IMG/VR virus record: IMGVR_UViG_3300030450_001859
Coordinates: 1 to 20,832 of that record
Direction: 5' to 3' (one strand)
DNA: 20,832 nucleotides
From: a virus
Shown here: piece by piece, positions 9,730-20,832 of the stretch
Numbering within the stretch: position 1 is the first letter of the stretch
Layout: every line of letters starts with the position of its first letter
The notes under the pieces: generated by a model
Seen by the model: only the letters and a program-made list of their open reading frames with translations
What the model was told of the DNA's origin: nothing
The model's database searches: none
Position numbers and translations under genes: made by a program

Positions 9730-10074
9730 ATGGGATTAAGGCTAAATCAATCGGGGACATATAAATGGCCTGTAACTGTTCAGATACCAATCGATGGTGG
9801 TAAATATGAGAAGACAAAGTTTGATGCTGAATTTAAGCGCTTAACTGAAACACGTATTTTAGAAATCAATGAATTAATCACCAAAGGAAAACTTGTTGCA
9901 GTTGATTTATGCAAAGAGGTTCTTGTTGGTTGGGAGGGGATAGAAGATGACGACGGCAATGAGGAGGCATTTTCAGAAACTAATAAAAAGAAGTTGCTAA
10001 ATGTACCAAGGGTTGCACAGTTTATATCAGAGGCTTTTTATGCATCAATAGAGGGAGCTAAAAGAAAAAACTAA
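9730..10074 (+). CDS. Tail assembly chaperone, gpG-like (zero-frame product)
   Basis: This 114-residue protein is coded between tail tube and tape measure, the universal place for the lambda gpG type of chaperone. It opens with a beta-rich part (YKWPVTVQIPIDGGKYEKTK), continues with helices (FKRLTETRILEINELITKG, VDLCKEVLVGWEGI) and ends with helix VAQFISEAFYASIEGAK. Such chaperones coat the tape measure and recruit tube protein. The protein stops at TAA 10072-10074 immediately after a slippery heptamer. A smaller share of ribosomes should shift and make the longer gpGT form. ATG 9730 is used; ATG at 9726 is in another frame. Confidence 0.85.
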   Translation: MGLRLNQSGTYKWPVTVQIPIDGGKYEKTKFDAEFKRLTETRILEINELITKGKLVAVDLCKEVLVGWEGIEDDDGNEEAFSETNKKKLLNVPRVAQFISEAFYASIEGAKRKN

Positions 10075-10400
10075 CTGACTGTGTTGATTATATTTTTAAA
10101 AATAGTAAAAACAATCAAAGTGAATTAGAAGCAGCAGCTAAAGCTTTCGGTGTCATTTTACCTGAAAAAAAAGACAAGGATTTTTTATTATGGCCAGAGC
10201 ATGAGGACGTATTGGATTTATTTATGCGTTGTCAAACTCAATGGAGGGTTGGCGGTCTAGGGCAAGTGACAGGTTTTTGCTATGAGTCGGTAATAGCTTT
10301 GGCTAATATTTACAAGTATGATGACCTCAAGACGGTGCTTGAAGATTTACAGGTAATGGAAATCCGAGCAATTGAAATCATGAATAAGGAGCAGAAATAA
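9730..10400 (+). CDS. gpGT chaperone made by -1 ribosomal frameshift
   Basis: Reading joins 9730-10071 to 10071-10400 and gives about 223 residues. After the slip at A AAA AAC (10065-10071), the -1 frame stays open from CTA at 10071 to TAA at 10398-10400. The 109-residue extension contains AAAKAFGVILPEKK, WPEHEDVLDLFMRCQTQWRV and GGLGQVTGFCYESVIALA. The TQWRxG...TG.xYxxV pattern is that of the gpT-type extension found after many phage gpG genes. In lambda, gpGT binds both tape measure and tube protein. No good start codon or ribosome binding site supports an independent T gene. The stop overlaps the tape-measure ATG as TAATG. Confidence 0.88.
10052..10071 (+). promoter_or_regulatory. Programmed -1 frameshift signal
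   Basis: The heptamer A AAA AAC at 10065-10071 lies in phase over codons AGA AAA AAC of the gpG frame, one codon before its TAA stop. An internal Shine-Dalgarno-like AGGGAG sits at 10052-10057, seven bases upstream. This is the same kind of stimulator used at E. coli dnaX. A weak inverted repeat TTGATT/AATCAA with a long A+T loop follows at about 10084-10117 but is unlikely to be strong. Efficiency cannot be read from sequence. Confidence 0.85.
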
Positions 10401-18465: not shown

Positions 18466-18488
18466 AAGGTTAAGCGTTTGGTTTTGTG

Positions 18489-18821
18489 ATGGGTGTCACG
18501 CCTGGTTTGTATTCCCCGAAGATTTATCGACGGGTTGATTGGTCTCAAGAATTTGTCTTACAAGCAAATGGTAATGCCGTTAATTTAAGCAATAGCACTT
18601 TGACGGCTCAAGCGTGGAACGAGAACAGGACTAAAAAATATTGTGATATGACTTGCACAATTAGTGACTCAGCAAATGGAAAAGTACAAGTTTCTATGAC
18701 AGAAACTCAAACAACTATTCTTCCAGACGTTGCTTATTGGGACTTAAAAAAGACAAGCGGCGACATAACTGAATATTGGTTAACAGGGAAACTAAATGTT
18801 TTTCAAGGTTACACCTCATGA
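18489..18821 (+). CDS. Small beta-rich baseplate/fibre accessory protein (BppU N-terminal-like)
   Basis: This 110-residue protein starts at ATG 18489; an in-frame GTG directly before it at 18486 is less likely. The pattern DWSQEFVLQANGNAVNLSNS, AQAWNENRT, NGKVQVSMTETQTTILP, VAYWDLKKTSGDITEYWLTG and KLNVFQG is that of a small beta sandwich seen as the N-terminal domain of baseplate upper proteins and in stand-alone form beside phage fibre genes. It may be an adaptor between the tail tip and the collagen-like fibre, with which it is coupled by an ATGA overlap. It resembles the N-terminal domain of the gpW-like protein at 3739 in its last strands. Function is inferred. Confidence 0.6.
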   Translation: MGVTPGLYSPKIYRRVDWSQEFVLQANGNAVNLSNSTLTAQAWNENRTKKYCDMTCTISDSANGKVQVSMTETQTTILPDVAYWDLKKTSGDITEYWLTGKLNVFQGYTS

Positions 18822-20832
18822 CAACAACTTCTTCGAGTAATTCCATGAACACAGTCACAGTTAACAGCATTGGAACACAAGGTCCAGCAGGTCCCGCTGG
18901 TCCCGCTGGTGCCGCTGGTGCTGCTGGTGCCGCTGGTGCAACAGGTGCTGATGGTAAGACCCTATTGAATGGAACGGGTGCGCCTTCTAACGGGTTAGGA
19001 GCTAATGGTGATTTCTATATTGATACGACTAACAAAGCAATTTATGGTCCTAAAAATAGCGGGACTTGGGGTTCAGGAACTTCATACTTGCAAGGCGCTC
19101 AAGGTGCAACGGGTGCAACGGGTGCAACAGGTGCAGCGGGTCCGACTGGTTCTCAAGGATCAACTGGAGCGACTGGTTCAGCAGGTGCTGACGGAAAAAC
19201 TTTATTAAATGGATCTGGTGTTCCTGGGTCAGGACTAGGTGTAGATGGTGATTTTTATATTGATACAACAAACAAAAATATTTACGGTCCAAAGGCTAGC
19301 GGTGCGTGGGGGAGTGCTACTTCTTACTTGCAAGGACCAACTGGAGCTACTGGTCCTCAAGGTCCACAAGGAAATACTGGTTCACAAGGAGCTACAGGCG
19401 CGACGGGAGCAACAGGGCCAGCGGGTCAAGACGGTCAGGATGGTCAGGATGGTCAAGGTATAACCGACGGAGACAAAGGTGATATTTCCGTAAGTAATAC
19501 AGGAACCGTTTGGACTATTGATAATAATGCTGTTACTAACGTCAAAATTCTTGACGATACAATTGCCGAATCTAAATTAGATATTCATGGAGGAGGGCCA
19601 AGCGGAACAAATAAGTTTTTAGGTTATACAGCCAATGGGATGGAGTGGGCAGTACCTCCTGATACTACATATTCGGTTGGTGATAATGGACTTACAAAAA
19701 ACAATTTTACTGATGCGTTAAAAACAAAGCTCGATGGTATCGCCACAGGCGCAGAAGTAAATGTCCAGAGTGATTGGAACGCTTCAAGCGGTGATGCTCA
19801 GATATTAAATAAGCCAACAATTCCAACTAATACAGATACAACTTATGCAATCTCATGTGTTGATGGAGATAATACAGATGAAGAAAAGATTCGTTTAACT
19901 GCTGGAGGTGATGGCAGTGGTACGGATGATGTTGTACTTGAGGCAGGTACAGGTCTAAGCGTTGCAAGATCAGGCGATAAGATTACATTCACAAATACTG
20001 TTAGTAATACAGATACACAGTTAACAACAGAACAAGTTCAAGACATTATCGGGGCAATGGTTTCTGGTAATACGGAAACTAATATTGCTGTTACTTATGA
20101 CGATACAAACGGGAAGATAGATTTTGTTTCGACTGATACGAATACAACTTATTCAGTCGGTGATAACGGTTTAACTAAGAATAATTTTACTGATGCTTTA
20201 AAGACAAAACTTGACGGAATAGAAGCCAGTTCAACGGCTGATATGACGGGCAGTGAAATCAAATCAGCGTATGAAGGTGAATCAAATACTAACGCATATA
20301 CGGATGCAGAAAAAACAAAGTTATCAGGAATTGCTACGTCTGCGAATAACTATGCCATATCTTCTGATTTGCTTGATGAAGATAATATGTCAACCAACTC
20401 AGCGACTAAAGTTCCATCGCAGCAGTCGGTTAAAGCCTACGTCGATGCAAATAGTTCTGATACAACTTACACAGCCGGAACAGGTCTTCAATTATCTGGG
20501 ACGCAGTTTTCAGTAACGTCTTTAGCTTTAACAACAGTACAAGAGGCTTCAAGTCAATCAGCTCAATTAGCACTGACAACGCAAGAAGGAGATATTGTTG
20601 TTCGTACTGATGAAAACAAAACGTATTGCAGAAATAGTGGATCGGCTGGAACGATGGCAGATTTCACACTGCTTAGAACCCCGACCGATTCAGTACTTAG
20701 TGTTAATGGAAATACAGGAGCGATTACATCGGCACAAATAGCAGCAGCGGTTGAGGCGGCTTCAGATTCAAATACTTTTACTGACGCAGATCATTCAAAA
20801 TTAAACGCTATTGAATCTAACGCGACTGCCGA
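18818..20832 (+). CDS. Collagen-like tail fibre (3' end outside the window)
   Basis: The frame from ATG 18818 has no stop up to the right edge (671 codons plus two bases), so the protein is longer than seen here. Gly-X-Y tracts lie at residues about 19-48, 93-128 and 173-214, and should form trimeric collagen-like rods. Two copies of a 51-residue module, at 43-93 and 123-173, sit between them, overlapping the tracts at their edges. From about 215 on it is a beta-rich fibre with repeats of the TDALKTKLDGI type and VPSQQSVKAYVDANSSD, common in phage fibres. The start overlaps the previous stop as ATGA; AGG lies 10 bases upstream. It is likely a long side or tip fibre that contacts the host. Short forward ORFs at 19005, 19245 and 20253 and the reverse ORF at 19050 are shadows of it. 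Confidence 0.88.
   Translation, partial: MTTTSSSNSMNTVTVNSIGTQGPAGPAGPAGAAGAAGAAGATGADGKTLLNGTGAPSNGLGANGDFYIDTTNKAIYGPKNSGTWGSGTSYLQGAQGATGATGATGAAGPTGSQGSTGATGSAGADGKTLLNGSGVPGSGLGVDGDFYIDTTNKNIYGPKASGAWGSATSYLQGPTGATGPQGPQGNTGSQGATGATGATGPAGQDGQDGQDGQGITDGDKGDISVSNTGTVWTIDNNAVTNVKILDDTIAESKLDIHGGGPSGTNKFLGYTANGMEWAVPPDTTYSVGDNGLTKNNFTDALKTKLDGIATGAEVNVQSDWNASSGDAQILNKPTIPTNTDTTYAISCVDGDNTDEEKIRLTAGGDGSGTDDVVLEAGTGLSVARSGDKITFTNTVSNTDTQLTTEQVQDIIGAMVSGNTETNIAVTYDDTNGKIDFVSTDTNTTYSVGDNGLTKNNFTDALKTKLDGIEASSTADMTGSEIKSAYEGESNTNAYTDAEKTKLSGIATSANNYAISSDLLDEDNMSTNSATKVPSQQSVKAYVDANSSDTTYTAGTGLQLSGTQFSVTSLALTTVQEASSQSAQLALTTQEGDIVVRTDENKTYCRNSGSAGTMADFTLLRTPTDSVLSVNGNTGAITSAQIAAAVEAASDSNTFTDADHSKLNAIESNATA
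18944..19336 (+). repeat. Two copies of a 51-residue module between collagen tracts
   Basis: Copy 1 is at 18944-19096 and copy 2 at 19184-19336, offset by exactly 240 bases. Both start GADGKTLLNG and share GDFYIDTTNK, IYGPK and TSYLQG; 41 of 51 residues are identical. Each copy begins and ends inside Gly-X-Y tracts, so the unit of duplication is module plus collagen. It is a coding repeat inside the fibre gene. Confidence 0.88.
19664..20221 (+). repeat. Identical 26-residue fibre repeat with different codons
   Basis: Positions 19664-19741 and 20144-20221 encode the same 26 residues (core YSVGDNGLTKNNFTDALK) exactly 480 bases apart. By my count 17 of 26 codons differ, all synonymously. Looser relatives lie at about 20297-20350 (YTDAEKTKLSGIATSA) and 20777-20832 (FTDADHSKLNAIESNATA). 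They are probably repeating structural units of the fibre shaft. Confidence 0.85.

Follow-up and report, generated by a model that had tools for sequence, protein, structure and literature searches.

Genes G and T are overlapping open reading frames (ORFs) on the plus strand of a 20,832-nucleotide (nt) linear marine phage fragment from IMG/VR (record IMGVR_UViG_3300030450_001859; hereafter the window). The putative major tail protein gene flanks the pair on one side and the tape measure gene on the other, and this order matches that of lambda-type tail modules. G (9730–10074) encodes a predicted tail assembly chaperone of 114 amino acids ending in AKRKN, assigned from its gene position and a match to Phage_TAC_4 (Pfam PF08748; 23.4 bits, curated cut-off 21.1). 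T (10071–10397) lies in the -1 frame relative to G and comprises 109 codons, from CTA at 10071 to the TAA stop at 10398–10400. It matches DUF1799 (PF08809; E = 4.1e-12; 46.6 bits, cut-off 26) and the PHROG 680 tail family (E = 5e-22). We consider it very probable, from the comparative data presented here, that a -1 ribosomal frameshift joins the two into a G-T fusion tail assembly chaperone. A first-pass annotation of the window had described T as a gpT-type extension; the frameshifted fusion is supported, but the domain assignment is not, as DUF1799 was the only Pfam match of T and Phage_tail_T (PF06223), the lambda gpT family, was not matched.

The slippery heptamer and the G stop codon

The G reading frame ends GAG GGA GCT AAA AGA AAA AAC TAA. 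A slippery heptamer, A_AAA_AAC, occupies 10065–10071 in phase with G, such that its AAC is the final sense codon and the TAA stop (10072–10074) follows directly. An internal Shine-Dalgarno (SD)-like sequence, AGGGAG, is located 7 nt 5' of the heptamer at 10052–10057. These elements, like the 109-codon open frame, lie where the first-pass annotation had placed them. The -1 frame is closed by a TAA at 10059–10061 and open from 10062, so any frame change is confined to the 13 nt from 10062 to 10074, with the heptamer inside. Across the window's genes, in-phase X_XXY_YYZ heptamers occupy 42 of 6,703 codon positions (0.6%) and in-phase AAAAAAC only three; the copy at 10065–10071 is the sole in-phase heptamer that abuts a stop codon.

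The gene pair was found by tblastn in annotated phages, including the Synechococcus phages S-LBS1, S-CBS3 and S-CBS1 and phages of E. coli, Pseudomonas, Variovorax and others. Nearly all of those read closely carry A_AAA_AAC with an immediate TAA or TGA; phiPMW carries G_GGA_AAC. A broader set of 234 T loci was assembled from scans keyed on T peptides only, plus fetched phages; the full T alignment offered no conserved stretches for profile scans, and two sub-alignments were used instead. R_RRA_AAC is present at 233 of the 234 loci and is followed directly by the G stop at 232 (231 detected automatically and L036 by inspection, its apparent exception being a parsing artefact at a site that reads GGGAAAC TGA). 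The stop codons of the 231 are TGA (142), TAA (75) and TAG (14). GGGAAAC takes the place of AAAAAAC at 42 raw loci, and grouping the abutting set at <60% T identity gave 27 clusters, 20 with AAAAAAC and 7 with GGGAAAC; this grouping was built from abutting-stop loci and indicates breadth, not an exception rate. The alternation preserves both the X_XXY_YYZ pattern and the A-site codon, no AAG-type heptamer occurs among the 233 slip sites, and the heptamer is kept while other C-terminal residues of G diverge. In a Pseudomonas massiliensis prophage (L034, 2393–2822), GGGAAAC is retained with the G stop three codons downstream; an abutting stop is therefore not strictly required. Judged across these relatives, a terminal slip site is the norm of the DUF1799-type family, and a chance origin of the heptamer is untenable given its conservation; the signal is genuine and ancient.

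In comparisons with L002 and L003, the ratio of non-synonymous to synonymous substitution (dN/dS) over T codons 1–46 is about 0.2 in the T frame, and the other two frames hold stops. The residues that follow the slip (L[TIKR]xAV..., LTxxV...F) are conserved in the -1 frame across distant relatives. The conservation and purifying selection of codons 1–46 argue against T being a separate, unfused protein made from an internal start, whether TTG at 10212–10214 (the earliest common start codon of the T frame), ATG at 10224 or a non-standard codon. GAGG does lie a few nt 5' of the TTG, and several relatives have T annotated from an internal start in databases, but the TTG is TTA in the nearest relatives (L002–L004), the first candidate start of T is scattered from codon 4 to codon 85 across 76 representatives, and a start-codon model leaves the near-invariant heptamer unexplained. 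We regard an internal start as very improbable.

Transcriptional slippage, in which an extra A in some mRNAs would set T in frame, has an equally slight chance of being correct. A run of six A residues is present at the site, with an A4 run nearby, whereas one review gives runs of nine A or T for bacterial transcriptional slippage. The swap between AAAAAAC and GGGAAAC in relatives disfavors polymerase slippage, because GGGAAAC contains no long homopolymer yet keeps tandem slippage on the ribosome, and the selected SD-like element described below also suits ribosomes rather than polymerase.

Putative stimulatory elements

Anti-SD pairing energy 5' of the slip site averages -6.8 kcal/mol in eight window-clade representatives, compared with -4.5 when the same genes are shuffled synonymously (0 of 150 as low), although clade members are related and such shuffle counts overstate independence. 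The equivalent values are -6.3 and -4.9 for the sister clade, and -3.5 and -3.3 for the remaining family, where the difference is not significant (p = 0.15). Published active SD-like sequences follow the same distribution: they are present in all eight window-clade members (5.0 expected) and 12 of 18 sister-clade members (6.1 expected), with no excess outside these two clades (6 of 50; 6.8 expected). The window-clade element is variously GAG GGA, ACT GAG GCA or ACA GGA GAG, so that the nucleotide signal stays while the encoded residues change. By these measures, the SD-like element is under selection in the window and sister clades but not family-wide. A family-wide element was considered and rejected, its excess over synonymous shuffles being small (27 clusters; p of approximately 0.03 for gaps of 3–6, best-site p = 0.15).

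Folding downstream of the slip site is stronger than at control positions across the 76 representatives (mean z of -1.2 and -0.15, respectively; Wilcoxon p = 9e-8), and many relatives have a hairpin there, instead of or besides an SD-like element. The sister clade has a hairpin of 11 pairs that starts 7 nt 3' of the heptamer and is supported by covariation: 95.5% of cells are paired, four pairs have changed on both sides, and the score exceeds that of all 500 shuffles. The window clade retains the SD-like element alone; the sister clade carries hairpin and SD-like element together. Over the full set of representatives, SD strength and hairpin strength showed no significant trade-off (Spearman 0.12, p = 0.32).

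The first-pass annotation had likened the signal to that of E. coli dnaX. The two share an upstream SD-like element, as dnaX also has an internal SD of the AGGGAG type 5' of its A-rich heptamer, but the likeness as a whole is not supported: the dnaX heptamer is A_AAA_AAG rather than A_AAA_AAC, and dnaX has a 3' stem-loop and approximately 50% shifting to a shorter product. With an SD-like element and a hairpin, the sister lineage is closer to dnaX in its stimulators than the window is.

Predicted frameshifting and its rate

In the proposed mechanism, the majority of ribosomes would translate G and terminate at the TAA at 10072 to give gpG, while a minority would move back by one base at A_AAA_AAC and continue from CTA. 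Pairing of AGGGAG with 16S ribosomal RNA would probably aid the slip. The predicted product is a G-T fusion of 223 amino acids with the junction ...AKRKN-LTDCVDYIF.... By analogy with lambda, G would coat the tape measure protein, while recruitment of the major tail protein would fall to the T part.

Several observations weigh against this interpretation. The E-value of G for Phage_TAC_4 is modest (7.5e-5). The 7-nt SD gap is below the 9–14 nt given for -1 shifting in one review, though it falls inside a range of 6–17 nt used elsewhere, counted to the second base of the motif. No 3' hairpin was detected in the window (shuffle z of approximately 0) or in any of the eight window-clade representatives (z of -0.1 or higher). 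Lastly, a T frame without a slippery site, which would be unexpected if T were reached by slippage, was found at one of the 234 loci: L080 (2312–2705, from a gammaproteobacterial metagenome-assembled genome) has a DUF1799 T-like ORF with no adjacent G in the -1 arrangement, and may represent either a decayed prophage or another arrangement.

The first-pass annotation also suggested a possibly high, dnaX-type shift rate (tens of percent), with a G:G-T ratio far from that of lambda; this is not supported, and we consider it very unlikely. Selection for SD-like sites in the window clade would fit such a rate, as would the AGGGAG core, which is also that of dnaX, but the window clade has no hairpin, and AAG is absent from all 233 slip sites. 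In E. coli, A_AAA_AAC is reported to be a low-efficiency motif and A_AAA_AAG to be far more shift-prone (PMC4066793, PMC5009743). A stop at the next codon also reduced slippage in E. coli, with release factor 2 (RF2) competing: according to the summary of Horsfield 1995 in PMC4373837, a human immunodeficiency virus slip site followed by a stop gave less shifting, and excess RF2 abolished it. Placement at the very end of G had been read as a hint of a high rate, but because the same placement is the family norm (232 of 234 loci), it is uninformative on the rate in the window phage. Among characterized chaperones, two HK97-like genes shifted at 6 and 7% in reporter tests (PMC3711429), the lambda product ratio is 30:1, and the P2 shift rate is two to three times higher (PMC5009743). 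A low to moderate rate is favored here, from comparisons based on E. coli, from which the host may differ.

A tentative extension, which we rate as possible but rather unlikely, is that R_RRA_AAC and the immediate stop form a compound signal. Slippage would then occur partly with the stop in the A site, and release-factor competition (RF2 at UGA, RF1 at UAG) would set the G:G-T ratio; the 3' hairpin and 5' SD-like element would be helpers able to replace each other, acquired in some lineages and lost in others.

Related systems, annotation and significance

Frameshifting of tail chaperone genes in tailed phages is long established, and the abutting slip-stop layout has already been published for two phages. 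Acinetobacter phage vB_AbaS_Loki gp12/gp13 (PMC5313236) shares AAAAAAC, the slip-then-stop layout and a predicted -1 fusion with the window; phage and host differ, the Loki fusion is likewise a prediction, and no SD comparison was given. In Burkholderia phage KL1 gp18/gp19 (PMC3483164), the slip heptamer is also directly 5' of the chaperone stop, but it is GGGAAAC with TGA, and a stem-loop is predicted downstream. Coliphage T1 (ST40/ST39) and HK639 combine Phage_TAC_4 and DUF1799 with A_AAA_AAC and an immediate stop; unlike the window, T1 has a hairpin that starts 5 nt after the first two bases of the stop (7 nt after the heptamer) and a weak SD-like element. Reports on T1-like phages mention a conserved frameshift but do not give the site. 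The R_RRA_AAC-stop unit is also found in phiCbK, and AAAAAAC has been published both for phiCbK and for halovirus HCTV-2. Lambda similarly makes a G-T tail assembly chaperone by -1 frameshifting close to the end of G, but there the heptamer is G_GGA_AAG and precedes the stop by five codons, and the Pfam families are TAC_2 for G and Phage_tail_T for T. The D3 heptamer is GGGAAAG, six codons before the stop, and the chaperones of lambda, HK97 and D3 all belong to families other than those of the window.

Elsewhere, the window carries a head-tail module of terminase, portal, capsid and tail genes, of which the terminase, portal and capsid genes were named from sequence likeness and gene order. 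An in-phase A_AAA_AAG, the dnaX heptamer, occurs at 18746–18752 in the ORF at 18486–18821. It was rejected as a frameshift site: the -1 frame stops seven codons on, so that a shift would not fuse it to the collagen-like ORF downstream, and this copy is probably due to chance. That downstream ORF (18818–20830) contains Gly-X-Y repeats with repeated DGDFYIDTTNK-IYGPK units and is probably a tail fibre gene that runs off the fragment.

As had been anticipated, gene callers miss T or start it wrongly. In public records (L008, L009, L010, L246 and L013), T is annotated from false internal starts in S-CBS1, S-LBS1, S-CBS3 and T1 and is unannotated in HK639; the S-LBS1 G gene is labelled as an ABC transporter ATPase. 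No paper linking the name DUF1799 with frameshifting was found in the open literature, of which coverage was partial, and the family-wide slip-stop rule and the comparison of stimulators may be new. These data would correct a widely misannotated pair, in that a DUF1799 gene just 5' of a tape measure gene is to be read back to its R_RRA_AAC-stop. They also offer a naturally occurring set for comparison, with one slip site joined by either, both or neither of an SD-like element and a hairpin, which would help in studying how phages tune their frameshift rate with a motif that is weak on E. coli ribosomes.
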